A stretch of DNA of 37,419 nt, from positions 1 to 37,419 of IMG/VR virus record IMGVR_UViG_3300005531_000020, one strand, 5' to 3'. Made by a program: the position numbers and the translations under genes. Origin of the DNA: a virus. Below, in pieces: positions 141 through 31,394 of the stretch. Position 1 is the stretch's first letter. Each line of letters starts with the position of its first letter. The notes under the pieces were generated by a model. The model did no database searches, was not told where the DNA came from, and worked only from the letters and a program-made list of their open reading frames with translations.

Positions 141-668
141 TCACACGCGCCGATAGGCCACGACGCCTCCGAGTTTGTGCGGCGACATCCAGCGGGTGCG
201 GACGGCCCCGCCATCGTTGCCAGACTGCACCAGGATCATTCCGTTGCGGTGCTCGAGCAGGCGCCCAACATGATGGCGCCAGACGACTACGTTTGCCGTC
301 TCGATCGTCGCTGCCGCCCCTCGCCGCGCCCAATTGATCGCCAGATTGAGCGAGCGATCGGCGATGCCAAAATATGTCCGCAGCCAACAGCCGCACCACG
401 GAATGCCGTAGCAGTCGCGCGGACGGCTTCCCGACGCCGCTACGGGCGCCGCCCATGCGTTGAAACGGTTCTGGTGCTTCCAAGGATGCCTGCGGGTCTC
501 ATGCCATCCCCTGACATCGCAGGACGGCAGGTAGCGGTCGTCGCAGTGGACCGGACCTGAGCCGCCCGTTCCGAAGACATGGTGGTGATGGTGCCTGTGA
601 TGCCGCGCCTGCGCCGGCAGGCACGCCAAGAGAACGAGCGCGAGCGCGCCCGCAACGATGCGGAGCAT
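141..668 (-). CDS. Secreted NlpC/P60- or CHAP-like cysteine hydrolase (putative)
   Basis: A 175-aa protein with a clear Sec signal peptide (residues 1-21, ending PAQA) followed by a histidine-rich stretch (about residues 22-30). The C-terminal half has the layout of papain-like cell-wall hydrolases: a cysteine at the head of a helix (WCGCWLR), then a valine-rich strand with paired histidines (VVVWRHHVGR), then SGNDGGAVRTR. The mature chain has five cysteines, which fits two disulfides plus one catalytic Cys. It is the last gene of the lysis cluster, just before the terminator. Probable role is cell-wall degradation in the periplasm. The family call rests on motif pattern only; an adhesin-like wall protein is an alternative. 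Confidence 0.6.
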   Translation of the reverse strand: MLRIVAGALALVLLACLPAQARHHRHHHHHVFGTGGSGPVHCDDRYLPSCDVRGWHETRRHPWKHQNRFNAWAAPVAASGSRPRDCYGIPWCGCWLRTYFGIADRSLNLAINWARRGAAATIETANVVVWRHHVGRLLEHRNGMILVQSGNDGGAVRTRWMSPHKLGGVVAYRRV

Positions 669-1132: not shown

Positions 1133-1723
1133 TCACGGGTTAGCGGGCGGCGCGGCGGGCGCTGGCGTGGGCGCCGCCGCGCTCGCCGGCACCGTCACGG
1201 GCGCTGCCACGGCGATCTGCGGCACCTTGCTGCACAGATCGTGCAGGCTCGGGATCGGGATCGACACGTTGAGCGGCGCCGCGGTCTGCACAGTGGTCGC
1301 GAGATCGGCGAAAACCTGCGTGCAATGCGGGTTGCCGCACAGGTTGTTCGCCGCCATCTGCGCAAGCCGTAGCGCCTCGAGATCGGTCGCGGCGCGGAAG
1401 GTCAGCGGGATCGGATGCGCCTTGACGACATCCCCGAAGGCTTTGGCGGCGATCCAGCACTGCTGCCCATGACCATCCTGCAAAGAGGGAATCGTTGTCG
1501 AAAGCGCAATCGCCGCGTCGAGATCGTTAGCCACGAAGTTGGCGAGGTCCTGAAACGGCTTGGCGAGAAGCGCGCCGATCTGTGCGCCGGGCGTGCCGGG
1601 CGCATCGTCCGGCCGTGCCTGCGGGATGAGATTGGGCAACGTGATCTTGTGGCCGGCGGTGCGGTCCTGCGCCGCCGCCGGCAGCGCGATCAGGAGGGCG
1701 ACGAGGATGGCGAGATGGCGCAT
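1133..1723 (-). CDS. Secreted protein of unknown function, lysis cluster
   Basis: A 196-aa protein with a signal peptide (residues 1-18, ending PAAA before QDR), a helical middle with four cysteines (QQCW, NLCG, PHCT, DLCS), and a low-complexity Ala/Pro tail. Four cysteines in an exported protein suggest two disulfides. It starts one base after the stop of the holin-like gene (TGACATG), so it is translated with it. No family was recognised. Its place among lysis genes suggests a periplasmic role such as a spanin-like or envelope-modifying function, but this is inference from context. Confidence 0.65.
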   Translation of the reverse strand: MRHLAILVALLIALPAAAQDRTAGHKITLPNLIPQARPDDAPGTPGAQIGALLAKPFQDLANFVANDLDAAIALSTTIPSLQDGHGQQCWIAAKAFGDVVKAHPIPLTFRAATDLEALRLAQMAANNLCGNPHCTQVFADLATTVQTAAPLNVSIPIPSLHDLCSKVPQIAVAAPVTVPASAAAPTPAPAAPPANP

Positions 1724-3658: not shown

Positions 3659-5941
3659 CTAGTTGATCCTTATCGCCGTAATCGTGCTGTCCTTGGAGTT
3701 GCCGCTCGCGTTGAACAGGATTTTTCCGCTGACAGATGTCACGTCCTTGCAGCTTATCCTGATATTAGCTGCAGGATTTGCCAAAACTCCAGACAGACTA
3801 ATTGAGTAGAAGGAATTTGCTGCACCAAATGCCCCAACCTGCCCCGACGAGATAACGGTCGTACCGTCCCACAGTTTGCAGTCGAAAGTAGCCCCACCAG
3901 CCGTGTCAGTCAAAGTAACTGTGCCATTAGCCTGCCACGTTCCCACCGTTCCCTGAGCAGCGCTCGGGCCGTCGAAATACGTACCCGTGTTGTTAAGAAG
4001 TACATCGGCGCCAAGAGAGTTAACTGCCGATTGGACCAGATTATTGGTGTAGCATGCTCCAACCGAATAAACCGCCCCGTTCCCGACATTATCGGTAACG
4101 GTACATTGTGTCGCCCCTGTCCCTATCGTCACGGCGTTGCCGGTGTTGGACCCAAACGCATTCGAGAAGAACGAGTTATTGGATATGGCAAACACGGAGC
4201 GGCTGTTGCCGACGTTTACGCCGATGCCGCCATTTCCGGCGATAGTGCTGCCATGCACGATGTAATTTGACCCGGAGCTGATGTCCACGCCATCCGCGGC
4301 ATTGGATAGGATCTGGTCGTTGTTCAACGAGACATCGCCGGTGAACGACGTAGAAAACGTCAGCCCCGATCCGCCACCGCAGCAAATCTGCGAATCCACA
4401 ATGTCCAAATAGCCGCCCGCGATGGCGAGGACGCCTTGATTGAGGCCGCCGTTGATGTAGCTGTGGAGGATGTGCATGCCCGTGGGCGCCGTCCCGGCCT
4501 GAGAATTCTGTATCGCCACAACCGCCGAGCTGGGGCCGGTCATGTCGACCTGAAACAGATTTGCCGCAGCGACCCCCGTGTCGAATACGACCATAGAGTA
4601 TGTTGCGGGCCGCAGGAGTTGCCACGTCACCGTGTTGTCGGGGATGTCGGTGCCGTAATTAGCAATCCCTGGGCTGCTGCCATTTCCGCTCGTGCCGCCG
4701 ACCCTAGCCTGCAAAACGTAGGAAATTGCGTTCGCCGTGACTGTTACGACCGCGCAGGTAGCGTAGACATGATTGGCGACCCATGCGCTTGGGGACACTG
4801 TTGCTTGCGCAAGCGTGCATCCCGATACGGCGTTTTGGTCATATTTGCTGCGGATGTGCCAGCTATTGGAAGATGCGCCGATCAGGCTTATGTTGGTCGG
4901 ACCGTAAGCGTATCCTGCCTGACTGTCTATGGAAACAAAGTCCTGACCAGACACAACTAGATTTTGATAACCTCCAGTCATCATCGAAAAATCAGCGAAG
5001 CACACCGCACATCCGTTGTTCACCACAACGGTCGAGTGCACTGTCGCAACACCCGCGATGACGCCGCCGCCATTAACATGCAGATGTCGAAACCCAACGC
5101 GCGTTGACGATAGTTGCAGAACCGTCACGTCGTGCCCGCAGGCATCCAACGATGACGCACCGCGTGCGAATCCTCCCGTAACAATGGTGCCATCACCGCC
5201 CGATCCAACCAAGACGAGGTTGGTAGAATTCAGGTTGATGCCCGAGAATGTGCAATATTCTCCCGGCGGCAGAAAGATATCACCCCCGCCGAGCGCCGCG
5301 AGCGTCGTCTTACATGCGTTGATCGCCGCCGTATCGTCGGCTACGCCGTTTCCCAAAGCACCATGCGCACGCACATCACACCACGGGCGACCAGAGCCCA
5401 TGTAGACATCGACCGCAAAAATATTTGTTCCTCCACCAGAAACGGCGCCGCTCCAAACCTGGTAGTTTGTTCCATCCGAAATAATAAAAACGCCGACGCC
5501 CTGGCCCACCGCAAAATTAGCCGCGCCATTGATCAGAGAACCGCCCTGTGGCGTGATCGTGACGATGCCGACCCCAATATTTTTTATGTAGAAATTGAAC
5601 GGATAGAACGAGCTCGCAGCCCCGGCCCCGCCGTTTACCGTCTGCGGCAACGTGACCGCAACAGCGCCAGCGTTGTTGAACGTGACGAGTTGCCCGTAAT
5701 CGCTCGCCTGGATCGTGTAGCTCGTTCCGACCTGCGCATTGACGCCGGCATATTGCTGGAACGATGTCACCGCATTGTTGAGGAATCCACGCAGGATAGA
5801 CGGCACGATCAGGTTCGATGTGTTGTCGGGGAAATCCTGCGTGATCTGAGTGTTGAGCGTCGCCTTCGGAAATGGCTGCTGCGCGCTCGCCGCAAATGGC
5901 ACGAGTGCAGACAGCGCCAACAGCAAAGCAACACGGATCAT
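3659..5941 (-). CDS. Tailspike with right-handed beta-helix and Sec signal peptide
   Basis: A 760-aa protein. Residues 1-20 form a signal peptide (ending FAASA). Residues about 45-165 are a beta domain with an NxGxGxVTITP-type motif (IKNIGVGIVTITPQGG). From about 175 a pectate-lyase-3-type start (DVRAHGALGNGVADDTAAI) leads into a long Asn/Ser/Gly-rich beta-helix, then a C-terminal beta domain (CKLWDGTTVISSG). Likely the receptor-binding, possibly glycan-cutting, tailspike. The mature chain has 14 cysteines. An upstream ATG at 5983 would add 14 residues before the signal peptide. It looks more AT-rich than its neighbours, suggesting exchange. The stop is TAG. Confidence 0.85.
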   Translation of the reverse strand: MIRVALLLALSALVPFAASAQQPFPKATLNTQITQDFPDNTSNLIVPSILRGFLNNAVTSFQQYAGVNAQVGTSYTIQASDYGQLVTFNNAGAVAVTLPQTVNGGAGAASSFYPFNFYIKNIGVGIVTITPQGGSLINGAANFAVGQGVGVFIISDGTNYQVWSGAVSGGGTNIFAVDVYMGSGRPWCDVRAHGALGNGVADDTAAINACKTTLAALGGGDIFLPPGEYCTFSGINLNSTNLVLVGSGGDGTIVTGGFARGASSLDACGHDVTVLQLSSTRVGFRHLHVNGGGVIAGVATVHSTVVVNNGCAVCFADFSMMTGGYQNLVVSGQDFVSIDSQAGYAYGPTNISLIGASSNSWHIRSKYDQNAVSGCTLAQATVSPSAWVANHVYATCAVVTVTANAISYVLQARVGGTSGNGSSPGIANYGTDIPDNTVTWQLLRPATYSMVVFDTGVAAANLFQVDMTGPSSAVVAIQNSQAGTAPTGMHILHSYINGGLNQGVLAIAGGYLDIVDSQICCGGGSGLTFSTSFTGDVSLNNDQILSNAADGVDISSGSNYIVHGSTIAGNGGIGVNVGNSRSVFAISNNSFFSNAFGSNTGNAVTIGTGATQCTVTDNVGNGAVYSVGACYTNNLVQSAVNSLGADVLLNNTGTYFDGPSAAQGTVGTWQANGTVTLTDTAGGATFDCKLWDGTTVISSGQVGAFGAANSFYSISLSGVLANPAANIRISCKDVTSVSGKILFNASGNSKDSTITAIRIN

Positions 5942-5972
5942 TCCGCCCGCGCCAAGCCAATGGAATCCCGTC

Positions 5973-7964
5973 TTAGTTCGCATTGACGGCGTCCTTCCAA
6001 CCCTGCAACTCTACGGCACATCCTGCCCCACCACCGGCATAGCCGATGGAGTTGCTCTCTAGGTTCATAATGGCCTGCTGATTGCGAACGTTGTTGTCGC
6101 TTGCATTGACGAAAAGAGGCCAAATCAAACCATTTGTTCCATTCGGACCGTTGTTGGTTCCACCCCAGCTCGTGCTCGGTGCAGCCATGACGTTGCAGGC
6201 GGCATTTCCCTGATATGTATCGGTGACGAGAAACCATCCGGCCGTTGCGGTCGGCGGGGCGCAAAATCCATTTCCTGTGACCTGCTCAGCCGCAAGCGTA
6301 GGCGACGTAAACGAAAAAGTGCCGGCCGATCCATGGAAGATAACGCATGGAAGCGTCGTATTGGAGGAAGCCACAAGCTGGTACTGCGCCAGAGCGCCGG
6401 TTTGTATCGTGCGGAAGAGGTTGCTGCTCCCATCAACCGCCATTGCTCCAAGTCGGCACTTGTAGGTGTAACCGCTCGGCATTGTCGGCGCCGTTGACGA
6501 CGTGGATGCGAGTCCTGCTGGCGCCGCGCCATTATCGATGAGCCAGATATAGAGCCACTGATTGGTGCCGGTCGATTCACCATCCATTCCGCCTGCAGTT
6601 GCGGTCGAAGTGCCGAGCGTGATGTTGATGTTCTGTGAGACGTTCGACCGGTTGATCACGAGCCCCGCATTCGTCTGCATCAAGGCTTGGCTCGCCGTGA
6701 TGGTCAGGATCGTGTTTGGCGTGCCGACGCTGTTGGTGATCTTGAGTCCAACAGCCCCGCATAGAGGCGCAGTTGCGCCCGACGCCGATGCGATCACCGT
6801 ATTGATCAGGTGAAACGAGTTGTCGCTCGCGCGAAAGGACACCCATACCGGATTGGACTGGGTGATTTCGGAGGGCGCACCCGTGAGCGCGACCGGACCC
6901 GCCGTCGTATCTTTCAGGACCGCGATATTCCCGAAGCCGGACGGATTGAGCGTGACAGGGCCGGTGTTGCTCGCAATCGCCGTGAAACCGACGATCGATC
7001 CATCGGTGCCATTGAATCCCGCATCGACGATGGTGATTGCGTTCGGCGTGCCGCCCGCAGTGCCGGCCCAGAAGGTCGAGGCGCCCGCGCTGGTGTCGGT
7101 CGTCGTCTGATCCCAGATCGTATTGCCGACCGAGTCCTTGAGGATCTGGCGGTAGCTCCCCGTCCCATAGATGACGGCGCAGCCGTTGGCGTCGAGCGGG
7201 ACCGGATTCGGGTTGAGGTGATTGGCCGCCTGGTCGGCGTTGAACCAAGTCGATTTGAGCGTGGTCGTGCCCGGGATATAGAATGTGACCGAGCCGCCCG
7301 CGAGGCTGTTGTTGATCGCGACCGACGCGACCGGGACGGTAAAACCGGACACGTTGCCGATCGATCCCGAGGCGGCCGTCAGCGTGTCGCCGACCACATA
7401 GCCCGATCCCGGATTGAGGATCGACACCGCCGTGACACCGCCACCGGATACCGTGATATTTGCAGTTGCTCCCGAGCCCTGTCCTCCGGTCAGGGTCACG
7501 TTGGCATAGGTGCCGGATGTCCCTCCAGTCCCCGCCGTAATGGTGCCGAGAAGCCCGATAAAGCCGGTGCCTGTCGTCGAAACGGAGTTGACGGGCACCG
7601 AGAAGCCCGCCCCGGAACCCCCGCCAATGGACGCCGTAGTGGCACTGAGCGTGTCCCCGGCCGCGTAATGGGACCCGGGGTTTGTGAGTGCAACGCTCGA
7701 CACCGAACCGAGCGTGACCGTGATGGTAGCCTGTGCGCCGAAGCCCGATCCGCCGGTCAACGGGACGTTGGTATAGGTGCCATTGACGTAACTTGCCCCG
7801 CCCGAGATCGCCCCGAAAACCGTAATGGGGCCAAGAGTGCCCCCGCTGGTGGGCGAATTGGCCGCGAAACACTGCTCCCCGGGGGGGAGCAATGTAGCCG
7901 CCGCCTGGGCTTGGCCGAGGCAGGCGAGCAGCAATAGAATGGCCGCGGCGAAGAACCGTTGCAT
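5973..7964 (-). CDS. Tail fibre-like protein with signal peptide and repeated beta module
   Basis: A 663-aa protein. The start at 7964 is chosen because it opens a signal peptide (residues 1-21, ending GQAQA) and has GGATGAG just upstream. Two related copies of about 65 residues follow (GTYTNVPLTGGSGFGA ... and GTYANVTLTGGQGSGA ..., each with NPGSxYxxGDTL), a repeat type common in phage tail proteins. Next is a head-binding-like segment (PVPLDANGCAVIYGTGSYRQ) and a Ser/Thr/Gly-rich C-terminus. Eight cysteines are in the mature part. Position after the ejection proteins and before the tailspike makes it a tail fibre or adaptor. Confidence 0.75.
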   Translation of the reverse strand: MQRFFAAAILLLLACLGQAQAAATLLPPGEQCFAANSPTSGGTLGPITVFGAISGGASYVNGTYTNVPLTGGSGFGAQATITVTLGSVSSVALTNPGSHYAAGDTLSATTASIGGGSGAGFSVPVNSVSTTGTGFIGLLGTITAGTGGTSGTYANVTLTGGQGSGATANITVSGGGVTAVSILNPGSGYVVGDTLTAASGSIGNVSGFTVPVASVAINNSLAGGSVTFYIPGTTTLKSTWFNADQAANHLNPNPVPLDANGCAVIYGTGSYRQILKDSVGNTIWDQTTTDTSAGASTFWAGTAGGTPNAITIVDAGFNGTDGSIVGFTAIASNTGPVTLNPSGFGNIAVLKDTTAGPVALTGAPSEITQSNPVWVSFRASDNSFHLINTVIASASGATAPLCGAVGLKITNSVGTPNTILTITASQALMQTNAGLVINRSNVSQNINITLGTSTATAGGMDGESTGTNQWLYIWLIDNGAAPAGLASTSSTAPTMPSGYTYKCRLGAMAVDGSSNLFRTIQTGALAQYQLVASSNTTLPCVIFHGSAGTFSFTSPTLAAEQVTGNGFCAPPTATAGWFLVTDTYQGNAACNVMAAPSTSWGGTNNGPNGTNGLIWPLFVNASDNNVRNQQAIMNLESNSIGYAGGGAGCAVELQGWKDAVNAN
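7911..7940 (+). promoter_or_regulatory. Candidate promoter for the plus-strand ORF at 7965
   Basis: TTGGCC (7911-7916), an 18-base spacer and TAGAAT (7935-7940, five of six matches to TATAAT) lie 24 bases before the divergent ATG at 7965. The site is inside the signal-peptide codons of the fibre gene. It is a pattern match only. Confidence 0.3.
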
Positions 7965-8264
7965 ATGGCTCATCCGATTCTGACCAGCATTCTGATCACA
8001 GCCGCGATTTCGGCTCTGCATGGCGCCTATCGGGGCCTGCAGAACCGGTTCGGGCGCAATGTGATCAGGGGATACTTGGAATACCGCGCCGAATGGCGGG
8101 CGTGGAAATGGTGTCAGGCAAACGATCCGGACTATCTCGCCGCGAAGAACTTCGGGGAGCAGATCGTCGCTTGGGAAGCGTTCAGGGCCCGCTGGATACA
8201 GGCTCGAGAGGCTGGGCGAGCTCGTAGCGACGGCGGTATTCCGCCTGACCCGGACCCGCAATAG
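7965..8264 (+). CDS. Plus-strand ORF between fibre and ejection genes, unknown
   Basis: A 99-aa ORF whose ATG abuts the fibre ATG back to back in a CATATG palindrome. The start is hydrophobic (HPILTSILITAAISAL), followed by a Trp/Arg-rich helical part (YLEYRAEWRAWKW, then AWEAFRARW) and a Pro/Asp tail. Composition looks like a real protein and it fills an otherwise empty 217-base gap. Its end runs 83 bases into the end of the opposite ejection-protein gene. No strong ribosome site. Not recognised; could be a moron. Confidence 0.45.
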   Translation: MAHPILTSILITAAISALHGAYRGLQNRFGRNVIRGYLEYRAEWRAWKWCQANDPDYLAAKNFGEQIVAWEAFRARWIQAREAGRARSDGGIPPDPDPQ

Positions 8265-13147: not shown

Positions 13148-13969
13148 TCATCTTCGGCATTTCAGCACCTTGAAATCGTCGCCGTCGAGCATCAATACGG
13201 CCTCTCCGATGTCGACAATGACGGGATCCCGATTGACGAGCGCGATCAGCCCGAAGCCCGCAAACACCGCCATGTGGTTGTAGAGGTTGATGGCCTTGTC
13301 GATCTGTCCGCCTCGGATCATCTCGACGCAAGCACCGGCGATCACGTCATGCGCCTTGTCGTCAGAATGCGCATGGGGCGCGCGGCCGTGACGCTCATAC
13401 TCTGCGTCTAGCCGGGCGTGGAAGCGCTCGCCGGCCGATTGCAAGCCTTCCTCTAGCCACAGCCATTGCGGATAGTGCATGGCGTAGTGCTCGACATCGA
13501 CATCGCCGTGCTGTGTCGGCCACGTTCCGACCCGCACGAACTCGCATTTGAAGCCGACCCGCCGCACTGCGAGCGCGGCCGCCCGGTTGAACGCCGGAAC
13601 CTTCGTCCGCAGCGTCATTGCATCGGTACGGGTGAACATCCAGCGTCGGGCCGCCCGCGCCGCCTCGATCGCGTGGCGTCCTCGGGATGACGCGAGGAAG
13701 CTCGTATGGAATTCGTAGACGCCGCCGCCCTGCTGCACGAACATGATGCCGCCGCCCTCGGTCATCAGCAGCACATTAGCCGTGTTGGCGACGATCTCAG
13801 TGCAATCGAACGGCTTGCCAGCATCGGCCGGCACCGAGATCAGCGGAAAGACCTCCGCATCGTTCAAGATCGCGTTGAACTTTGCGGCGTCGGTCTCGCG
13901 CCAGATATGCGGCCGATCTAGCCGAGCTGCATCGACAATATCTGTCCGGGTGCCGTGCATCGAAACCAC
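13148..13969 (-). CDS. GNAT-like protein at the P22 gp14 position
   Basis: A 273-aa protein. Residues about 65-140 have an acetyltransferase-like core: beta strands GGIMFVQQGGGVYEFHTSF, then ASSRGRHAIEAARAARRWMF in the place of the acyl-CoA-binding helix, then TKVPAFNRAAALAVRRVGF. This kind of degenerate GNAT domain is known in P22-type head-assembly proteins. The C-terminal part is helical, with SDDKAHDVIAGACVEMIRGG. It overlaps the preceding gene by about 50 bases. Whether it binds acetyl-CoA cannot be told from sequence. Confidence 0.6.
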   Translation of the reverse strand: MVSMHGTRTDIVDAARLDRPHIWRETDAAKFNAILNDAEVFPLISVPADAGKPFDCTEIVANTANVLLMTEGGGIMFVQQGGGVYEFHTSFLASSRGRHAIEAARAARRWMFTRTDAMTLRTKVPAFNRAAALAVRRVGFKCEFVRVGTWPTQHGDVDVEHYAMHYPQWLWLEEGLQSAGERFHARLDAEYERHGRAPHAHSDDKAHDVIAGACVEMIRGGQIDKAINLYNHMAVFAGFGLIALVNRDPVIVDIGEAVLMLDGDDFKVLKCRR

Positions 13970-14352
13970 TGCATTTTGCCAGCCGCGAGATTGTAGGCCG
14001 CACCCTTTGCGAGCGCGTCGATCGTGTCCGTCGCCTGCGGCGTTACCGCGAGCGAATTCGCCCCGAGATTGAAAACGAGGAAATCAGCTCCGGCGGCGAG
14101 CGGGGGAATTTGTGCCGCGCCGCCATTCGGCACCGTGGTGAAGATGTTCCAATCGCCAGCAATGAGCGGGAGCGTTGCCGGCGCGACAACCGCGGTGAGA
14201 TTTGGTTGAATATTTGGGGCGCCGTCGCCCTGACCGGTGCGATTGAACAGCGCAAGCAGGAGATAGTACCAATCATTCGCCGGGGCTCCGCTTTTCGCCG
14301 CGATCGGCAATTGCGGCGTCGGCATCTGCTTGGGATAGACCAGCAGGCCCAT
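13918..14352 (-). CDS. Small beta-rich virion protein after the hub gene
   Basis: A 144-aa protein. The C-terminal part (LVFNLGANSLAVTPQATDTI ... FRCTAPGQILS) shares a beta motif with the secreted protein at 16105-16563 and with the tailspike N-terminal domain. It takes the position where P22 encodes the tail needle gp26, but it lacks the long coiled coil of a needle. It may be a decoration or tail-tip knob protein. It starts three bases after the hub gene's TAG. Confidence 0.55.
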   Translation of the reverse strand: MGLLVYPKQMPTPQLPIAAKSGAPANDWYYLLLALFNRTGQGDGAPNIQPNLTAVVAPATLPLIAGDWNIFTTVPNGGAAQIPPLAAGADFLVFNLGANSLAVTPQATDTIDALAKGAAYNLAAGKMQWFRCTAPGQILSMQLG

Positions 14353-14355
14353 GGG

Positions 14356-15867
14356 CTAAGCGGTGCCCACCACCGGATCGACATAGGCGCCATTGAGCGC
14401 AGAGCACATCTCGGCGGTCGAGGAAAGTTCGATCACCATATCGCGGGCGAGACCGCCTGCGCGCCAGCGCATGACGCGGCGATAGCGCCCGCTGGAAATG
14501 CCCGCCTTGAGCCGGTTGTTGCCGAACTTGTTGCCGCCGTCACGCGAGAGCCGCAGCGACACCGTGGGCGCCGGAATGCCAGTGACGGGGCCAAAACCCG
14601 ACGAAAACCCGGCGCTCCATGGCCCGACGAACTGCCCATTCTCTCCCGTTCCCGGATGCGTTCCCGTCTCCACATCGGCGATGATCGCCGGATAACTGAT
14701 CCGCTTCATCTCGTCGAGCGAATGCGGAAACGACCTGATCCACGGAATCGGCGCACCGTTATCCGTGAAAGCATTCGGATCGATGGCGTAGAGATTGCCA
14801 TTGGCGAAATCGAGCGCGACATTCTTGCCGTAGGCGAAGGCGCAGAACGTATTGCGCGCTCGATGCGGCACCCCGTTCGGGTCGAACCAGTTGTCCTCGT
14901 GCCACTGCTCCGTTGCCTGGTCGAATCCCCACGTCTTGTCGGCGGTCGGAAAGTGCAATTTGTAGAACGAGTGACCCTCTGTCTGGTAGACAGCGCCGAT
15001 CGCATCGTCGATCCGAGCGTATTTCCTGAACTCGGCCTCGATCGCATGCGTCGAGATGCGCTGAGCTACGTTTTGATTTCCGGCCCGCATCACCATACGA
15101 TCGCCTTCAGGCGATTGCGAGAGCCAATAAACGCTCGTGTCCATCTTCGCGGGCGAATACTTCGCGGCACAGCCCTGCTCGATGATGACGCCGGGGAGAA
15201 TCTGAAACGGAAACGGCACGGTCCCCGAATTGAACCATACCTCGCTTTTCTTCGGACCGAAGATATAGACCTCTCGTTCAACCGTGACGATGCGCAGGAT
15301 GTTGTCGGGCCATGCGGTTTTTTTTCCGAGATAGAGCGCATTGAATGCGACTTGCTGCGCGAGCGTCGAGCCCCACGTATTGGTTCCGGGAATATTATAA
15401 ACGAGAAAACCGTCGAGGAAGTCGACGGCATCTGCTCCGACGAAATTAGGATCGCCGATCTGCGCAAATTGTGCCGCACCGCGCCCCGGCAATGCGATCG
15501 TATAGCCCTGCGAACTTCCGTCAACCACCATCACGCTCGTGCCGTTGTCGGCCATATAGACAGGGGACGGCCCTTGCGTCTGCAGGGCTCCGAGGAGCGT
15601 GAAAACCCAATCCGGCGATATGTAGTAGAGGTTTTGCCCGATGACCGCGTAGAGATCGCCATTGGTCGCGCCATAGAGGCCACGGCCCGGAGCGGGTGCG
15701 GGAGCCACAGCAAGGAGAGACAGCCCCGGACGCGGATAGTGCGTAACTGGCGCCGCCGGCTTGATGTTGGCCGGGTTCATTTCCGGATATAGATTGATGC
15801 ACCTCTGCGCCGAGGCGATATAGCTTTCGGCCGAGTAGGCGCCGCTTGTCAGCGGGATGGCAACCAT
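14356..15867 (-). CDS. Packaged-DNA stabilization / tail hub protein, P22 gp10-like
   Basis: A 503-aa protein opening with the characteristic start of the P22 gp10 family: IPLTSGAYSAESYIASAQRC, then NLYPE and PRPGLSLLA. Repeated beta strands follow (GRGLYGATNGDLYAVIGQNL), giving a beta-propeller-like body, and a C-terminal section with VSLRLSRDGGNKFG. In P22 gp10 joins gp4 at the portal and carries the tailspikes, closing the head after packaging. Length is close to the family's (about 470). Order after the gp4-like gene fits. It ends in TAG. Confidence 0.82.
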   Translation of the reverse strand: MVAIPLTSGAYSAESYIASAQRCINLYPEMNPANIKPAAPVTHYPRPGLSLLAVAPAPAPGRGLYGATNGDLYAVIGQNLYYISPDWVFTLLGALQTQGPSPVYMADNGTSVMVVDGSSQGYTIALPGRGAAQFAQIGDPNFVGADAVDFLDGFLVYNIPGTNTWGSTLAQQVAFNALYLGKKTAWPDNILRIVTVEREVYIFGPKKSEVWFNSGTVPFPFQILPGVIIEQGCAAKYSPAKMDTSVYWLSQSPEGDRMVMRAGNQNVAQRISTHAIEAEFRKYARIDDAIGAVYQTEGHSFYKLHFPTADKTWGFDQATEQWHEDNWFDPNGVPHRARNTFCAFAYGKNVALDFANGNLYAIDPNAFTDNGAPIPWIRSFPHSLDEMKRISYPAIIADVETGTHPGTGENGQFVGPWSAGFSSGFGPVTGIPAPTVSLRLSRDGGNKFGNNRLKAGISSGRYRRVMRWRAGGLARDMVIELSSTAEMCSALNGAYVDPVVGTA

Positions 15868-16104: not shown

Positions 16105-16563
16105 TCACTTGCAGGCCCAGATGCCGACCTTGGCCACGAAGCAATACAGGGAAGAATGCGACGTGATGGTTGTGCTGGTCGAGTTGTTGATCGTATCCTG
16201 TGCGGCCGTTACCGGATTGTTGGCAACCGCTGGATAGACAGTCAGCGTGTTGGCGCCGTTGTTGTAGATGGAAATCTCGATACCGGCCTGCGCAGTGACG
16301 AGGTTTACCCCCGTCGAGGCCGCGACTGTGTCGACCTCGATGAGGGTGATGGCGGCAGGCAACTGCGTTGCAGTCGCCTGCGTGGTGCCGGCGGCCGTGA
16401 TGCCGCTCTGATAGGAGGCATTCTGGCCGTTGGCCACGCCAAGGAGCCATGTGCCGTCGGGCATCGACGGACCCTGCCCCGGGGTGGGAGCAGTGCCGAC
16501 GCCGGCAAGGGCCGCTGTGGCAGCAAGCCCGGCAAGAATAAGGGCAGCAAAAAACTTCTTCAT
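16105..16563 (-). CDS. Secreted small beta-rich structural-type protein
   Basis: A 152-aa protein with a textbook signal peptide (MKKFFAALILAGLAATAALA) and an AAGGAG ribosome site eight bases before ATG. The mature part is Thr/Ala-rich with IYNNGANTLTVYP, DTINNSTSTTI and FVAKVGIWACK, a beta motif shared with the 144-aa protein at 13918-14352. There are two cysteines near the end, enough for one disulfide. It sits between the gp4-like and gp10-like genes, so it is probably a virion component despite the export signal. Confidence 0.65.
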   Translation of the reverse strand: MKKFFAALILAGLAATAALAGVGTAPTPGQGPSMPDGTWLLGVANGQNASYQSGITAAGTTQATATQLPAAITLIEVDTVAASTGVNLVTAQAGIEISIYNNGANTLTVYPAVANNPVTAAQDTINNSTSTTITSHSSLYCFVAKVGIWACK

Positions 16564-18560: not shown

Positions 18561-19820
18561 TTACGGCGTCGAGTCCGCCACGCTTGAGATCCACTCCGGC
18601 CGCGGCACGCCCGAGCCGAATAGGATGTCGAGACGGTCGATCGGCTGGTCGGTTGTCGGCTCGTAACACACGAGTGATCGCATCGAGAGCTGATCGTAGT
18701 AGTGCCGCGCCGCCGCGATGACGCCCTTCTCGTTCGGCGGGATCCACAGCGGGGCGACCACCATAGTGATGGCGTCCGGCGCATAGGCGAGGTTCTGCCG
18801 GTAGGTCACGCTCGCGTTCGCGAACGGCGTGATCGTGGCATTGTTCGCCGGTGAGGCCGTGACGGTCTGATACTGCTGCGGCGTATAGGGCAGACCCGCA
18901 TACGGGTTGTTGTTGAGCGGCGGGATGATCGCCGGGTAAACCGAGATCGAGGTAGCGCCGGCTGCGGCAGCCGCTGTCACCACGAACTGGGCGAGTGTAC
19001 CCAAGCTCTGATAGTTGAGGCGATTGACCGCGTTGACGCCCGCGATCGTGATCACGTCACCGGCATTGAGCGTGCCACCGAGCGCGTTGACGACAAGCGT
19101 GTTGCCGGTCTGGTTCGCACCATTGACGGTCGCGGTAGTCAGCGTTCCGGTCGTGTGCGAGACAACGCTCTGGTCCTCGAACCAGCGGAACTGCAGCGCC
19201 TCGTACATCATGCCAGTGTTGTACTGACGGCTGATGCTGTCGACCGGGTTGAGCAGGCCGCGGAGCGCGAGCTGAACGCGGGTGTCGGAACGTGGCGCCA
19301 ACACCACCTTGCGCATGCCCATTTCGCCGAAGTTCGGCGCCGAGTTTTCCTCGAGGATCGCACGGGCGAGCGCGAACGGGGCATCCGTCACGGGCTGGAT
19401 GTTGTTGTTGGCGTCGACATTCGCCGTGATGTTGCGAACGACGGGCGCCGTGTTCGCCATGATCTGGATCGCAACGTTGGCCGCGAGCGCATTGACGCGG
19501 GGAAGAACGATGCGCTCCATGTAGTCGTCGACATCGAGGGTGGTTTCCGCCGACGTGAATGCCACGTCGACATGGCGCTGTGTCGCGACCGTGAGCAGGA
19601 ACTGCTGCTCGGTCGTGTCCTGGATGGAGGCCGCCGGACCATCGGTCACGGTGTACTGATTGGGCAGGCGAATGCGAAGCTGTGCACCGATCCTTGCGCC
19701 CTCGATGCCGAATTGGCTTTCGAACTGACGCGAGATGTTCTGAATGAAGTAGTTGGTATTCAGAAACATGCGGATCGAGTACCGAGTGATCATGCTCGGC
19801 GTGAGGATATTATTGGCCAT
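18561..19820 (-). CDS. Major capsid (coat) protein, P22 gp5-like
   Basis: A 419-aa protein close in length to P22 coat (430). It starts MANNILTPSMITRYSIRMF, followed by QFGIEGARIGAQLRIRLPNQ, matching the opening of the P22 coat family (HK97 fold). Later parts include QQFLLTVATQRHVDVAFTSA and a Gly/Asn/Thr-rich stretch (residues about 240-300) at the place of the I-domain/beta insertion. AGGAG lies nine bases before the ATG. It follows the scaffold gene, as in P22. Confidence 0.88.
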   Translation of the reverse strand: MANNILTPSMITRYSIRMFLNTNYFIQNISRQFESQFGIEGARIGAQLRIRLPNQYTVTDGPAASIQDTTEQQFLLTVATQRHVDVAFTSAETTLDVDDYMERIVLPRVNALAANVAIQIMANTAPVVRNITANVDANNNIQPVTDAPFALARAILEENSAPNFGEMGMRKVVLAPRSDTRVQLALRGLLNPVDSISRQYNTGMMYEALQFRWFEDQSVVSHTTGTLTTATVNGANQTGNTLVVNALGGTLNAGDVITIAGVNAVNRLNYQSLGTLAQFVVTAAAAAGATSISVYPAIIPPLNNNPYAGLPYTPQQYQTVTASPANNATITPFANASVTYRQNLAYAPDAITMVVAPLWIPPNEKGVIAAARHYYDQLSMRSLVCYEPTTDQPIDRLDILFGSGVPRPEWISSVADSTP

Positions 19821-20022
19821 CGGGATGGCTCCTGAGAATTCGTGCGCCATCTCCAAGGCGCATGGGTTTTGGGGCGGCGAAGCGCGCCGCGGTGATGCCT
19901 AGTTCCCGAGCTAGGACAGGGTTTCGGGTGGTACCTTGCTGACCGCGCAAGTCGGGCGGGGGCTAGACCGCGTGAGCCCTGCCGGGATACGCCCGGCGCG
20001 GCGGGGACGGGCCGCTTACGTC
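19821..20022 (-). other. Intergenic region upstream of the coat gene
   Basis: About 200 bases without a gene. It holds a 6-bp GC hairpin with a 5-base loop (GCCGGG-CGTAT-CCCGGC on the minus strand, near 19980-19996) without a T-run, and a weaker CCTAG/CTAGG pair. It may be a processing or translation-control element ahead of the abundant coat message. No clear promoter was seen. Confidence 0.35.
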
Positions 20023-22639: not shown

Positions 22640-23899
22640 TCAGTCTCCTTGCTCCTGGAACGGATCGTGGTCGACCGGAGCGAGCAGTTGCGCGCCAACT
22701 GGCATCATCACCAGCCCGGCAAGCCCGGCGAGCAGATTTCGGCTTGTTTTCAGCTCCGGATCGAAAGCCGCGGACGGGCTGCGAATTTGGTTGGGATCGC
22801 GCACGACGATAACCGGCTCTGGTTTTTGACCGCCCGGTCGGGTATAATTCTTGACCATCACAGCATCGTGGCCGCGATCCCATGCGTCCTTCAACCTCGC
22901 CTGAATTTCCGAGTCCTGCAGCCCCTGAGCATCGACAACTGCCGGCCGCTCAGTCCGATGCCATAGCTGTGGATTACCCGCCGTTCCCAGATCGCCCCAT
23001 ATGCCGTGCCCTCCCGGCAATCCCGGCGCTGTGGCCGCGATATCTGGACCTGTCGGCGTCCCCGAGCGCTGCTGTATCTGGCGCGCGAGAGATGCCTGCC
23101 CAGCCGCATCGTTCGTCGCCCACTCGGTGAACGGCGCAACCTGCTTGGTGTTTTCGGAGGCGAGTCCGCGCGTGGCGCCGAACGCGCCGCTCGGTGTCCC
23201 CTGCTTCGCCCGCGCCGCGATGTCGGCGGCCTCCCACCGGCTCACGAAACGCCCCGTATTGGTCACGAACCCATCGAGAATCGGACCTTGGCGCATTTCG
23301 TCGAGGGGCATCTTTTCAATGCGCTCGGCGGCCATCATCGCGTCCATATGGGACGGGCCGGTGTAGATGCGGCCGTTGACGTTGAGGGCCGCGGTCGCGA
23401 TCTTCTCGTCGGCCGGCGCCACGGCGAAGCCGAGCGGCATGTCGCTGCGAAAACCCATCGCTTGCGCGCGCGCCAATCGTGCGGCCTCATCCATTGGCAA
23501 CGCTGCCGCTTGTGCAACCCGCGCGCTCCGCACCGCGCCGGAGCCGAGCGTTGCCGCCCCGCGCGCACCGGCAAGCGGCGAGGCGGTCGCCAGCCCCGCG
23601 ATATTCGTCGCGTCCTCGATCGCCTGAAGTCTGAACCTACCCGTCGCCGGGTCGATCGGATTGGTGTTTGCGACATCCCAGATGGCGTTCCCGAGCGAAG
23701 TAGCGGCATCGTTCAGTAGGAGCGCTGGTGCCCCCGCGAGTCCGGTCGCGCCCCACGCGAGCGGCCCCGGTTCCGCACTCCACTGCGGCGAGATTGCCGG
23801 CCCCGTGTCGATACCGCGCTGCGCGAGCCAATAGGGCGAGCGCAGTGCAGGCGCCGCAATCAGCGGATTATCATCCGAAGCCTGCAGCGCGTTTGCCAT
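22640..23899 (-). CDS. Polyvalent / ADP-ribosyltransferase-like head-region protein
   Basis: A 419-aa protein. The N-terminal half is Ala/Gly/Pro-rich; residues about 172-235 carry ALNVNGRIYTGPSHMDAMMA and GFVTNTGRFVSRWEAADIA, a module known from large phage polyvalent proteins. The last 100 residues (GHDAVMVKNYTR; VIVVRDPNQIRSPSAAFDP) resemble the end of phage-borne ADP-ribosyltransferase-type domains. A hydrophobic stretch follows (LLAGLAGLVMMPVGAQLL) and the tail VDHDPFQEQGD. Its ATG overlaps the portal stop. Possibly injected with DNA to modify the host; inference only. Confidence 0.55.
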   Translation of the reverse strand: MANALQASDDNPLIAAPALRSPYWLAQRGIDTGPAISPQWSAEPGPLAWGATGLAGAPALLLNDAATSLGNAIWDVANTNPIDPATGRFRLQAIEDATNIAGLATASPLAGARGAATLGSGAVRSARVAQAAALPMDEAARLARAQAMGFRSDMPLGFAVAPADEKIATAALNVNGRIYTGPSHMDAMMAAERIEKMPLDEMRQGPILDGFVTNTGRFVSRWEAADIAARAKQGTPSGAFGATRGLASENTKQVAPFTEWATNDAAGQASLARQIQQRSGTPTGPDIAATAPGLPGGHGIWGDLGTAGNPQLWHRTERPAVVDAQGLQDSEIQARLKDAWDRGHDAVMVKNYTRPGGQKPEPVIVVRDPNQIRSPSAAFDPELKTSRNLLAGLAGLVMMPVGAQLLAPVDHDPFQEQGD

Positions 23900-26214
23900 C
23901 AGGAGACCACCATCATGTATTTTCCCGGCCGCGTCGTATCGGGAACGTACCAGTTCCCGTCCGGCGCCTGCCGCGCACCCTCGATCGGCGCCTGACCATT
24001 CGGCGCAGGAGCGCCGTTGCCATTCTGGTCCTGCGTCCCATCCGGATTCGTCATCTGGCCAATGATCGCCTCGTTGGCGCTCTCGATCGTCGAATAGACG
24101 TGCTCATGTGCACGCTGCTCGATCTCATGATCCATTTGCGCGCGCTGCTGCGGGGTCAGCGCAATCTTGGCAATGGCATTGACCATGGCCTCAAGCCGCT
24201 TGGTATCCGCATTGAAGGACTCGATGTCACGCCGTTCGTCGCGGCCACGGATCGTGATCTGCTTCTCGGCGAGCTTCTGCATCAGCTCCTTGTTCAATTC
24301 CTGGAACCGGGCAAGCTGCTGTTGAAGCTCGGTGACGGCCGGCGGCGGCCCCTGATCGAACAGGTACGGCTTGGTCGCCCTGATCTCCTTCTCGAACCGC
24401 TCGCGCAACTTGTCAGCACCGGGAAAGTCCGAGTAGTTGAAGAACAGATCGGCGCCGATCAGGATGGCTTCCTTTTGCGCAGCGAAGATCTGGCTCAGCG
24501 CGTTGACGGCTTCCTGCCGCTGCGTTGCGTAGTCAGGGCCGGGATCGGAAATGCACTCGTATTCGCCGATGGAGGGGTTGAAGGCCAGTTGAACGGCCTC
24601 CTGATCTTCCTTTTCGTGCTGGAGGTGCTGAAGCGCCTCGGCCTGGTCCGGAACGATGCTGATCCAGCGCCGCTCGCCGTCCTCGTCCTCGATTTGGAGT
24701 GCCCGCTTTGTATCGTAAATCTTCGGGATCAGATCAAGGAGCTGCACACCAATGAATCGCAGCATGTCGGAGTTGTGCTCGACGAAATGATATGTTGCGG
24801 TGTCACCCTGCTCTTTCCTCTCGTTGATCGCCTTGCCCGAGGCGGCCGATTGAGTGTCGTTCTCGCCCATCTGCGCCTGGAACTGGCCCGAGGCCATCAT
24901 CATGTGGCGCTCGGCGTCCTCGGCAACCTTGATCCATCCCGCGGCGGGCTGGGGCGGCTCGATACGCTGCGGCGGCGCGATCTTCGCCAGTTCCGGGCTC
25001 TGCGCCTCGTCGTCTATGTCGTTGTAGGTCGCTACCGCGAGGTCGTTGATGTTGCCGTCCTTCCAGCCTTCCTGCCCTTCGATCGCACGGGCTGGCGCGA
25101 GCCACTGCGATTTCGTCTGGAACGCAACAACCTGGACCGCAACCGAGGAGCCGTAATTGAGCATGCGGTTGCCGTCGATCAGCGCGCGGGTGTGTCCCTT
25201 GAGGTCGAGGGTATTGTCGATCACGAGCTCGCGGCCGACACAGCGGCAGATCGGAATGTACTTGCCGGCCCAGTCTCCGCGCTGAATGATTTTGTCGCCA
25301 GCGATCAGGAACCATTTCACCTTGTTGTTGGTAACCGAGCGCGTGCGACCGTCGATTTCGCCATTCTCGATGTCTGCGAGCAGCGCGTCGCAGATCTCAT
25401 CGCCGCTTTCTTCCCTGATTTCCGACTCGAGCTTGTCGAAGTTGTTACCTTCGCGGTCGGTCCACGAAACGAGCGTGTCCTCACTGCCTTCCTTGCGGTA
25501 ATACTTCGCGACCATGATCTCCTTGTCGGTGATCCATGATTGAAAGACGCCGCTGTCGATCGGCGCAGAGCCGACCTTATCGGCCCATTTCTTGTATTTC
25601 CGGTTGAATTCCTTGCGCGGAATCTTCTCGAACACGAAGCCGAAATTTGCGTCCGAGCCATCGGTCTCTCTGATCCATGGATCGAGATAGACGCCGGTCG
25701 GATCACGCGAGGCCTTGAGGAAGATATCCTGGTCGTGTGAGCGTTCCGAGATGTAAGCCGTCTCGATGAGGATATAGCCGATACCTCCATCGACCTGTTG
25801 CTCACGCACCTTGCGGTAGGCGGCCGTCGCTTTCGAGATGTACTCGATGCGCCGGATCAGGCTTTGCATCACCTCGGCTGATTTGTAACTCGCCTTGCCG
25901 CCGATCGGCCGGACCTTGATGCCATAACCGTTCTTCGACAACGAGTTGATGATGATGTCGTTGTGAACCCGCGTGTTGTTGATCGTCAGGCACGGAAGAT
26001 TGCTTTCCTCGCCGGTGCGCGAGTCATAGATCGACTTATCCCACTGCCAAGTGTTGCGAGCATCCCCGTTTGCGAACTTGATATCCTCGCGAATGCGCTC
26101 ATCCTGCACGCCCTGCCAGTCCTTGCAGGCCTGGAAGCGTTCGGCGGCCTCAGTGAGGATCGTGAGATCGCCTTTGAGGTTGCGATCGTCGGCGGGGGTG
26201 ATGAGAGCGACCAC
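23899..26214 (-). CDS. Portal protein, P22 gp1-like
   Basis: A 771-aa protein (P22 portal 725). The beginning (TILTEAAERFQACKDWQGVQ; CLTINNTRVHNDIIINSLSK; IKVRPIGGKASYKSAEVMQS) has the classic P22-type portal layout. The middle has VDGGIGYILIETAY and DPTGVYLDPW; a C-terminal coiled coil (ELQQQLARFQELNKELMQKL) and a Gln/Asn/Pro tail fit the barrel/tail. Twelve copies would form the DNA entry vertex. The start is GTG with a weak ribosome site. It follows the large terminase, as in P22. Confidence 0.88.
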   Translation of the reverse strand: MVALITPADDRNLKGDLTILTEAAERFQACKDWQGVQDERIREDIKFANGDARNTWQWDKSIYDSRTGEESNLPCLTINNTRVHNDIIINSLSKNGYGIKVRPIGGKASYKSAEVMQSLIRRIEYISKATAAYRKVREQQVDGGIGYILIETAYISERSHDQDIFLKASRDPTGVYLDPWIRETDGSDANFGFVFEKIPRKEFNRKYKKWADKVGSAPIDSGVFQSWITDKEIMVAKYYRKEGSEDTLVSWTDREGNNFDKLESEIREESGDEICDALLADIENGEIDGRTRSVTNNKVKWFLIAGDKIIQRGDWAGKYIPICRCVGRELVIDNTLDLKGHTRALIDGNRMLNYGSSVAVQVVAFQTKSQWLAPARAIEGQEGWKDGNINDLAVATYNDIDDEAQSPELAKIAPPQRIEPPQPAAGWIKVAEDAERHMMMASGQFQAQMGENDTQSAASGKAINERKEQGDTATYHFVEHNSDMLRFIGVQLLDLIPKIYDTKRALQIEDEDGERRWISIVPDQAEALQHLQHEKEDQEAVQLAFNPSIGEYECISDPGPDYATQRQEAVNALSQIFAAQKEAILIGADLFFNYSDFPGADKLRERFEKEIRATKPYLFDQGPPPAVTELQQQLARFQELNKELMQKLAEKQITIRGRDERRDIESFNADTKRLEAMVNAIAKIALTPQQRAQMDHEIEQRAHEHVYSTIESANEAIIGQMTNPDGTQDQNGNGAPAPNGQAPIEGARQAPDGNWYVPDTTRPGKYMMVVS

Positions 26215-27715: not shown

Positions 27716-28216
27716 TCACTGCTGAAATCCCCAAGCATTCACGTCGACCGCCGTGGCCGTCCCGTCCGCTGTGGTCGTGACCGTGATGGCAGTGTTGATC
27801 GCATTGCCAGCGATGCACGGCGTGAACGTGCGCGACAGCGTCGTGCCTGCGGCCGTCGAGGACATCTGATAGGTAAACGAATTGCCGCCCGAAAGGCCCG
27901 CTACCACAATCGGCCCGATCGCCGCCGTGCCGCCGATCGCGCTCACGTCAAATCCACAGATGAACGTTGTCCTATTGGCGCTCGCCGCGAGCGTTGCGAC
28001 GACCGCGCCCGTCGAGCCGGCGCCAACACCTGTGATTGAAGTCGATCCCGTCGGCGCGATCATCACTGGCAGCGGATTGACGCCTGATACGTCCGGGCAG
28101 TTGTTCGATCCGTTGGCACCGATCGATTGGACGCACACGCGGGTGACACCCTGTGCATGCGCCTGCCCACAAATGGAAAGCGCGGCCAGAAAGACCGCCG
28201 TCAGCAATCGTTTCAT
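27716..28216 (-). CDS. Secreted beta-rich protein upstream of the terminase large subunit
   Basis: A 166-aa protein with a signal peptide (MKRLLTAVFLAALSICGQAHA) and AGGA about ten bases upstream; a GTG at 28243, overlapping the previous stop as GTGA, is an alternative start. The mature chain is Gly/Ala/Thr/Ser-rich with four cysteines (RVCVQ, NNCPD, FICGF, TPCIA). It looks like a small decoration or adhesion domain. No family was recognised. Lying between terminase subunits is unusual for a secreted protein. Confidence 0.65.
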   Translation of the reverse strand: MKRLLTAVFLAALSICGQAHAQGVTRVCVQSIGANGSNNCPDVSGVNPLPVMIAPTGSTSITGVGAGSTGAVVATLAASANRTTFICGFDVSAIGGTAAIGPIVVAGLSGGNSFTYQMSSTAAGTTLSRTFTPCIAGNAINTAITVTTTADGTATAVDVNAWGFQQ

Positions 28217-28436: not shown

Positions 28437-28751
28437 TCAGATGCCGAGCAGCGCCCGCAGATTGGGATTGCCGTCGATCATGGTGATGCCGGCGACGACG
28501 AGGCGGCTCGAGCCGTCGATCGAGGCCGTGATCCCCGGGATTCCATTGAGCAGATTGACGATGTCCGAGCCCGACATGGTCCGAACGTCGATGATCACGG
28601 TCTTGCCGTTGATCGCCAGCGGCGATGGCGGCGGGACCGCGACAGCGGGCGCCGCCGCGGCGGTCCCCGTGGGCACCGAGTGAAGGGCGCCCACGGCCTT
28701 GGCGATCGGGAACGCGGTCGCGAGGTTCCCGACCTTGGTCTGACCCGACAT
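28437..28751 (-). CDS. Small protein of unknown function, terS-terL interval
   Basis: A 104-aa protein. N-terminal Ala/Pro-rich linker-like part, then a compact alpha/beta part (TVIIDVRTMSGSDIVNLLNG; ITASIDGSSRLVVAGITMID). Its ATG overlaps the previous stop (TGATG). It has no signal peptide although both larger neighbours do. No family was recognised. Confidence 0.6.
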   Translation of the reverse strand: MSGQTKVGNLATAFPIAKAVGALHSVPTGTAAAAPAVAVPPPSPLAINGKTVIIDVRTMSGSDIVNLLNGIPGITASIDGSSRLVVAGITMIDGNPNLRALLGI

Positions 28752-30124
28752 CACATGCCGGCCCAGGCGGTGAACTTGCCCGAGCCGCCGTTGTCGAAGA
28801 CCGTAGCGCTCAGGCCAACCGCTGCGGTCGTGCCGCCCGAGGTGCACTGCGCCATCATGTGCGTCATGCCGGCAACAGCCACGATCGTGCCCGCCGTCGC
28901 ATCGGCCGCGAGCGCCGTGCACGCCGTCAGCGCGGTTTCCGCCGTGGTCGTCGGCACCGCAAAGCCCGCCGCGAACGTGAAGGTCGGGGCGAGATACATC
29001 GGCTGCGGGAACACGATATCCCACTGGCATGCGGTGTTCGCGGTCGTGAAGTGGCAGGTACCGCGCGGCGTCGGCCCGGCCGTCTCCGAGATCGCATAGA
29101 AGAACTGCTGGGCACGGTTGAGGTCATCCTGCTTGCGGATCACCTCGAAGTTCGAGGCTGCGGCCCCGATCTCGAGCTGCGCGCCGGTCCAGGCGAAGCC
29201 GTCAGTCGCACCCGCACCAGTCGCGGTTGGGGTGAAGCAGATCGCCACGCCCACCTCAGTCGCGGTCGACGGGATCGACGCCGAAACCGAGTAGCGCGTG
29301 AACGTGGTCGTGATCGTGAGTGCCTGGTTGACCGCAGTTGCGATACCGGTCCAAGCAGGCGTGATCGCCGGTGATGCCGTCCACGAGCCGAAGCCCTGAT
29401 CCGTGCCGGTCCCGGTATAGACCACCATATTCACGATGTTGTTGTTGTCGGCCGCAAGGCCCGCAAGCGCGTCGAGCCACGCGCTGAACGTGACGGTCTG
29501 GCCGGCGAGCTGCGTCGCGATCGCCGACGGGATCTCCTGATGCACGCACACCGGCTGGGTGAGCGCGCCCGAGGTCCGAAACACCTTCATCACGTTGGTG
29601 AAGCCGGTCGGCGGGGACGGGGACGAGGTGACGATCGCACTGCGGCCCGCGCCCGAACCGACGTTGGTGTCGAGCGCCCAGCGATCCGCCGACATATTGG
29701 TCACGGCGAGCGCCGACGTGGTGGCGCCTGTCACTGTGGCGGTGCCGTTGATCGCCGTGATGTTGAGCGCAGCGTTGTCGAGGTAGTTGCGCGGCGTGCC
29801 GCCGTAGTTGCCCAAGAGCGTGACCGGGATGCGAACGGTCTGCGGCGAGGCACCGCCGCCGAGCTGCGTATCGGCCGGGATCATTTCCTGGCCGGTCAGG
29901 AACGACGGTCCTGCCGGAACGGTCTGGCCACAGATCGAGCCGGTCGAGCCCTGACCCTGGCCGGTGATGCCGCCGAGGCCACCGGTGCCGGTGACGGTCG
30001 AGGCACAGAACGACGCCGAGCCGACGATCGGCAGGGTCGAGAACAGCCCGGCCGCGATGGCGGACGGGATACCGATGGCGGCGACGAGGACGGCCGCAAG
30101 CATCACGCGGGGCGTGATCTTCAT
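28751..30124 (-). CDS. Secreted tail-fibre-like / carbohydrate-binding-like protein
   Basis: A 457-aa protein. The chosen ATG (30124) has GGAG seven bases upstream and opens a signal peptide (MKITPRVMLAAVLVAAIGIP ... AIAA). The C-terminal half has the jelly-roll pattern common in phage fibre and appendage proteins: VTFSAWLDALAG, then FAWTGAQLEIGAAASNFEVI and LNRAQQFFYA, where relatives typically read QLEVG..A..FE...LxxCQRYY. Eight cysteines in the mature chain. Probably a virion appendage or adhesin; encoded unusually between terminase subunits. Confidence 0.62.
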   Translation of the reverse strand: MKITPRVMLAAVLVAAIGIPSAIAAGLFSTLPIVGSASFCASTVTGTGGLGGITGQGQGSTGSICGQTVPAGPSFLTGQEMIPADTQLGGGASPQTVRIPVTLLGNYGGTPRNYLDNAALNITAINGTATVTGATTSALAVTNMSADRWALDTNVGSGAGRSAIVTSSPSPPTGFTNVMKVFRTSGALTQPVCVHQEIPSAIATQLAGQTVTFSAWLDALAGLAADNNNIVNMVVYTGTGTDQGFGSWTASPAITPAWTGIATAVNQALTITTTFTRYSVSASIPSTATEVGVAICFTPTATGAGATDGFAWTGAQLEIGAAASNFEVIRKQDDLNRAQQFFYAISETAGPTPRGTCHFTTANTACQWDIVFPQPMYLAPTFTFAAGFAVPTTTAETALTACTALAADATAGTIVAVAGMTHMMAQCTSGGTTAAVGLSATVFDNGGSGKFTAWAGM

Positions 30125-31238: not shown

Positions 31239-31313
31239 TGGTTGCAGAGGCCCGAATCGAACGGGCTACCTGCTGGTTATGAGCCAGCCGAGCTGCCAAT
31301 GCTCCACTCTGCT
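31239..31313 (-). tRNA. tRNA with CAT anticodon (Met, or Ile2), CCA encoded
   Basis: A full cloverleaf on the minus strand: acceptor AGCAGAG/CTCTGCA, D arm GAGC-ATTGGCA-GCTC, anticodon arm GCTGG-CTCATAA-CCAGC, 5-base variable loop, T arm GCCCG-TTCGATT-CGGGC, discriminator A and encoded CCA (31239-31241). Position 1:72 is an A:A mismatch and 11:24 is A:U, both initiator-like traits; the anticodon stem has two of the three G:C pairs typical of initiators. CAT can also be an Ile2 anticodon if lysidine-modified. Confidence 0.85.
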
Positions 31314-31318
31314 GAAAT

Positions 31319-31394
31319 TGGTCAGGGCGGCAGGCCTCGAACCTGCAACCCCCGGATTCCAAGTCCGGTACTCTGCCAACTGAGCTACGCCCTG
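31319..31394 (-). tRNA. tRNA-Pro (TGG), CCA encoded
   Basis: A cloverleaf on the minus strand: acceptor CAGGGCG/CGCCCTG with C1:G72 as in bacterial tRNA-Pro, D arm GCTC-AGTTGGCA-GAGT, anticodon arm CCGGA-CTTGGAA-TCCGG (anticodon TGG), T arm GCAGG-TTCGAGG-CCTGC, discriminator A, encoded CCA (31319-31321). It lies seven bases after the stop of the upstream ORF and five bases before the CAT tRNA, so the two are co-transcribed. Confidence 0.92.

Follow-up and report, generated by a model that had tools for sequence, protein, structure and literature searches.

In the textbook account, tailed phages are assembled entirely in the cytoplasm. The tailspike of P22 is the last part to be added and binds tailspike-less particles in extracts. 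Virion proteins that are made as Sec precursors are known from the filamentous phages, whose coat proteins, such as pIII and pVIII, are produced in this way. Tailspikes with the head-binding domain (HBD) discussed below are also known, and the literature searched here (signal peptides in combination with tailspikes, tail fibres or virion proteins, with subscription journals mostly outside) holds no description of one that is exported by Sec. In bacteria, an exported protein with a tailspike fold, WceF, has been described from Pantoea stewartii (PMC7949094). The tail of Agrobacterium phage Milano is disulfide-rich, with a network in the sheath and baseplate; neither periplasm nor cytoplasm turned up in a term search of the paper (PMC10811340).

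Here we examine a virus genome in which both genes at the tailspike position begin with a predicted signal peptide (SP; genes with and without one are referred to as SP+ and SP-). The window analyzed spans 37,419 bases and corresponds to one IMG/VR virus record.

The tailspike locus and the other signal-peptide proteins of the window

The window carries P22-type portal and coat genes together with large and small terminase, ejection and endolysin genes. The portal protein is encoded at 23899..26214 (minus strand; PF16510, E 5e-125) and the coat protein at 18561..19856 (minus strand; PF11651, E 3e-26). The gene at 14356..15867 (minus strand; phrog_578, E 9e-88) encodes a tail protein related to a Pam1/Pan3 tail-complex chain (PDB 7eeq_1, E 4e-11; 9vyg_M, E 9e-9), which is presumably the docking partner of the tailspikes. 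Genes B (7964-5973, minus strand) and A (5941-3659, minus strand) lie in the interval that separates the ejection from the lysis genes. A first-pass annotation of this DNA had drawn attention to their hydrophobic N-termini, and the open reading frames, coordinates, peptides and cysteine counts that it gave (8 in B, 14 in A) all proved correct. Elsewhere in the window, a tRNA-Met and a tRNA-Pro gene lie adjacent to each other at 31239-31394.

The B precursor starts with MQRFFAAAILLLLACLGQAQA/AATLLPPGEQCF, where the slash marks the predicted cut, from an ATG at 7964 or from an alternative MSH-MQRFF start at 7973. The Sec-type SP (MQRFFAAAILLLLACLGQAQA; 7902..7964, minus strand) is predicted from the sequence, from the SP+ relatives L004-L008 and from 68 SP+ family members. 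It would leave a mature chain of 642 residues with 8 cysteines. The HBD (AATLLPPGEQCF...; 7080..7901, minus strand) begins immediately after the cleavage site. This domain comprises about 90 residues and contains a cysteine pair at mature residues 11 and 241. In B it is enlarged by two Gly-rich tandem repeats (window about 7862-7311), which are present as a single copy in the close relatives L004-L007.

A profile built from 101 relatives of B matches the tailspike head-binding domain of cyanophage Pam1 (PDB 7eeq_A, 'Tailspike head-binding domain') with an E value of 2.4e-18 and also matches the Pan3 tail spike. For structural comparison the HBD was modelled on a relative with an uninterrupted domain (L160), the window HBD with its inserts being reached through the family alignment. 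The resulting model (pLDDT 86, pTM 0.76) is matched by Pan3 (Z 10.3), Pam1 (9.3), P22 (1lkt, 8.8) and Sf6 (8.7), and the first unrelated fold appears at Z 6.2. The remainder of B (5973..7079, minus strand), presumably the receptor-binding part, contains 6 cysteines; the whole-B model, built with 12 sequences, has a mean pLDDT of 49, mostly below 50 over 5973..7079, and yielded no fold for this part, so it was set aside.

We also asked whether the phage might encode a second B without an SP. None is present in 26 SP+ phage records, in which the SP+ copy is the only HBD (one record has two copies, and the SP state of both was taken from a near twin, L118). The identity of the HBD, the P22-type portal, coat and tail genes in the same genome and the absence of an SP-less copy together make the assignment of B as a P22/Pam1-type virion tailspike well supported at the level of sequence. 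A genome whose B protein carries the "plug", the HBD, thus also encodes the likely "socket" of such a tailspike (14356-15867).

The A precursor begins with MIRVALLLALSALVPFAASA/QQPF, from an ATG at 5941 or from a start 14 residues earlier at 5983. Its predicted Sec-type SP (MIRVALLLALSALVPFAASA) occupies 5882..5941 (minus strand), and A-type relatives in L004, L025, L069, L113, L154 and other loci also have one. Mature A (3659..5881, minus strand; 740 residues, 14 cysteines) consists of an N-terminal PDNTSNLIVPSILRGFLNN motif and a probable right-handed beta-helix at about 4070-4465 (PF13229, E 4e-5, just short of the cut-off). The position beside B and the SP+ relatives argue well for A as a second fibre or spike of the virion. 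The first-pass annotation had called B a tail fibre and A a tailspike. These labels need correcting: it is B that bears the tailspike HBD, and the probably beta-helical A begins with another motif.

Five more genes of the window, all on the minus strand, encode proteins with a predicted SP. The small protein at 16105..16563, in the head-tail gene block, has 2 cysteines; its relatives in L004-L007 are all SP+ with 2 cysteines and the SP-less relative in L163 has none. We presume it to be a surface or decoration protein. The SP-less product of 13918-14352, with a single cysteine, resembles it, both matching one open reading frame in L006. The protein at 28751..30124 (8 cysteines), perhaps a third fibre, has relatives downstream of B in several phages, and all 9 called members of its family are SP+ with an even cysteine number. 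In the window the gene is flanked by the terminase genes, but elsewhere it is found downstream of the tailspike gene (L204 5505-6980, L088 7584-9012). The other three were identified by SP call and cysteine count: 27716..28216 (4 cysteines), 1133..1723, beyond the endolysin gene (4 cysteines), and 141..668 (5 cysteines). A further segment flagged by the SP rule, 1725-2045 (1 cysteine), reads as a holin-like membrane protein and was set aside.

In window order, the mature cysteine numbers of the seven SP proteins are therefore 5, 4, 14, 8, 2, 4 and 8. The claim that every SP protein of the window but one has an even number stands, 141-668 being the only odd one. In one genome, six even counts out of seven have a chance probability of about 6%, which is weak alone. 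Density gives a sharper contrast: cysteines are more frequent in mature SP+ chains than in 16 SP- proteins of the window (45 in 2424 residues versus 28 in 5960, p 6e-9).

Signal peptides and cysteine parity across the family

HBD relatives were gathered from IMG/VR, INPHARED and GTDB loci, giving 187 distinct domains. In 68 of them an SP ends at the HBD, and in the other 119 the gene starts at the HBD (M-ATLLPN); four labels were set by eye (L249, L148 and L103 as SP+, L054 as SP-). The SP calls come from an in-house rule, not from SignalP. Restricted to ATG starts, this rule finds an SP in 56/68 SP+ rows, in 0/119 SP- rows and in 14% of shuffled SP+ upstream stretches. Across the family, the segments have a positive n-region, a hydrophobic core and an AXA-type cleavage site at the domain border, as Sec-exported proteins do. 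Tat export was considered and rejected, as neither SP contains a twin-arginine (RR) motif.

The SP state of B extends to its neighbor. A-type genes adjoining an SP+ B are SP+ by eye in 16/16 loci, the window included, and the 11 that are complete with an SP found by program all have an even cysteine number. The A-type protein of L120, with an SP assigned by eye, has 5 cysteines, and the A-type relative in L270 has no SP and one cysteine. Three loci combine an SP-less tailspike with an SP on a downstream second fibre (L194 7959-9164, L026 8211-9905 and L030 9460-10308); these fibres are of mixed parity, with 2, 4 and 3 cysteines.

All matches to B that we opened in cultured phages are without SP. 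They include Rhodoferax phage P26218, Pam1, X14, PBR31, BA3, PAE2 and FGH, with a Vibrio phage among them; the same SP- state is seen in three phage assemblies from Manatee Spring. No cultured SP+ phage was found among these matches, and searches of cultured phages for relatives of A, of the 28751 family or of the 16105 protein gave no match. In Pseudomonas phage PAE2 (OK041467.1; L009 3001-3258) the HBD gene is unannotated, the annotated frame at that position being one on the other strand.

SP+ HBD genes also occur in bacterial genomes. Among the Acidobacteriota relatives seen, 4 of 5 are SP+ (L102, L103, L290 and L291), with even cysteine numbers in all four. In L291 (wider stretch L299, 7693-13680) the SP+ HBD gene opens a series of three SP+ genes within a prophage-like block. 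Two Acidobacteriota SP+ HBD genes, L103 9911-11641 and L298 7584-8426, are without evident phage neighbors and may represent domestication or remnants. Order-level samples around a Hyphomicrobiales MAG (397 genomes) and a Pandoraea genome (399 genomes), small as they are, gave 17 and 4 matches with no clear SP+ row; L289 is doubtful.

If SP+ proteins fold in an oxidizing compartment, cysteines should come in pairs. Among complete chains with at least one cysteine, the mature number is even in 54/58 SP+ versus 46/95 SP- chains (Fisher 3e-9), a count in which L249, L148 and L103 are still under their program labels and whose members are not independent: the HBD tree requires at minimum 9 switches of SP state, leaving few independent contrasts. 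After thinning to low similarity, the difference persists (35/39 SP+ versus 37/72 SP- even, p 3e-5). Members that were SP+ or cysteine-rich supplied two of the query alignments, which biases the frequencies; the first scan used a query selected without regard to cysteines, and there 15/17 SP+ and 17/39 SP- chains are even (p 0.0017). The C-terminal part alone behaves in the same way (55/60 SP+ versus 36/87 SP- even), and strictly unrelated C-terminal sets give 5.8/7.1 versus 8.8/22.3 (p about 0.06, not significant alone). Five complete SP+ chains are odd, namely those of L008, L088, L116 and L242 and the A-type protein of L120. Three further SP families behave likewise among their counted members (11/11, 9/9 and 4/4 even).

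The positions of the cysteines follow the same division. In SP+ HBDs, they occur as couples at columns 10 and 58 (16 rows, with L148 a 17th by eye), at columns 31 and 68 (8 rows), or at column 23 together with a cysteine in an insert. SP- HBDs have isolated cysteines, mostly at columns 12 or 59, or none, and no such pair. In the L160 model, the two HBD cysteines are predicted to lie in short strands at 8-10 and 57-59. Cysteines that come in couples in SP+ HBDs and singly in SP- HBDs point to disulfides made in an oxidizing compartment. Even numbers and paired gain or loss are thus both observed, within the limited phylogenetic independence of the family, and the formation of disulfides by mature SP+ chains after export is strongly supported.

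The first-pass annotation had proposed export with disulfide formation in the periplasm and suggested looking for the same pattern in related phages. The pattern is there, and the proposal gains strong support from it. Because SP state predicts cysteine parity and pairing across the family, we reject the idea that the parity is a curiosity of one genome.

A candidate two-compartment assembly route and its alternatives

Taken together, we consider it probable that B and A of this P22-like podovirus are Sec precursors that fold oxidatively in the periplasm and dock at or after lysis. Signal peptidase would cut the SP exactly at the HBD, and the chains would then fold in the oxidizing periplasm, where disulfides would form within each chain, including one that clamps the HBD; the SP and cysteine patterns of the family strongly support both steps. 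By analogy with P22, we infer that heads and tail hubs would be constructed and filled in the cytoplasm, with folded trimers held meanwhile in the periplasm. Opening of the inner membrane at lysis would then let the HBDs engage the tail hub, completing the virion. The virion membership of the exported proteins, as had been assumed, is well supported for B by the HBD, the tail genes and the lack of an SP-less copy, and for A by its place beside B and its SP+ relatives; their actual incorporation, and its timing, we infer. Attachment late or at lysis is plausible and would need no new chemistry, since the P22 tailspike is itself added last and binds tailspike-less particles. On balance, although with less confidence, we favor the generalization that a large group of uncultured P22-like phages assembles its virions in two compartments: the cytoplasm would produce heads and tail hubs, the periplasm disulfide-bonded tailspikes and fibres and perhaps also decoration proteins, and the two sets would be joined at lysis.

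The main alternative is that the proteins are exported and oxidized but virion-free, acting as soluble depolymerases or receptor blockers, perhaps partly virion-bound, and released before or at lysis. WceF offers a bacterial example of an exported tailspike-fold enzyme (Tat; PMC7949094) to which the HBD model has a weak match (6tgf, Z 5.1), and the SP+ HBD genes of L103 and L298 stand outside an evident phage context. We nevertheless regard this explanation as unlikely: the HBD has been kept, with conserved positions identical to those of SP- tailspikes, the 26 SP+ phage records are without any SP-less HBD protein, and A and B occupy the usual tailspike place, with ejection genes on one side and lysis genes on the other. 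Shared descent could also be invoked, SP and even cysteines being by-products of ancestry in few lineages and parity a chance state fixed early. The small number of SP-state changes (as few as 9) and the small size of the strictly independent sets fit such a history, but SP+ cysteine counts range widely yet remain even, the HBD pairs have several distinct geometries, and the three further SP families are even as well (11/11, 9/9, 4/4), making it improbable.

The remaining alternatives question the SP itself. An uncleaved N-terminal segment, serving as a membrane anchor or as an ejection-related hydrophobic tip on a protein folded in the cytoplasm, would be compatible with a hydrophobic stretch that is a prediction and with the missing ideal cleavage site in some SP+ rows. 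We give this little credence, because cysteine parity and pairing track the SP, which would be needless in a cytoplasmic protein, and because in most rows the cut coincides with the beginning of the domain. Even less likely is that translation truly starts downstream of the hydrophobic segment, giving an ordinary cytoplasmic tailspike. In only 16/66 SP+ rows is the region of the cut free of ATG, GTG and TTG (B of the window has a single TTG there); with such codons present in the other 50/66, codons alone cannot rule out a downstream start. However, relatives retain an SP of the same character although its sequence varies, and it abuts the HBD; SP- relatives begin where the SP would be cut; and the cysteines behave unlike those of true SP- relatives. 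Export through Sec followed by late docking is the reading we retain.

If shown, this assembly route would be new for tailed phages. Lysis would double as an assembly step, the host Sec and Dsb enzymes would become phage host factors, and disulfides would be a means of stabilizing receptor-binding proteins. Phages of this type could be recognized from sequence alone by the SP rule, and for recombinant production of B-like tailspikes the periplasm would be preferable to the cytoplasm.

Comparison with known systems

The tailspikes of P22 (gp9), Sf6 (gp14), Pam1 and Pan3 resemble B in their HBD, by profile and by fold, and have similar tail and capsid genes nearby. Unlike B, the P22/Pam1-type relatives checked in cultured phages begin at the HBD, with neither an SP nor the HBD cysteine pair. 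Filamentous phages share virion proteins made as Sec precursors with the route proposed here but are extruded through the membrane, with no tail and no lysis. WceF is an exported protein with a tailspike fold, as proposed for B (PMC7949094). It differs from B in that it is encoded by a bacterial gene, uses Tat rather than Sec, targets the cell's own stewartan and is not on a virion. WceF is the nearest precedent for B.
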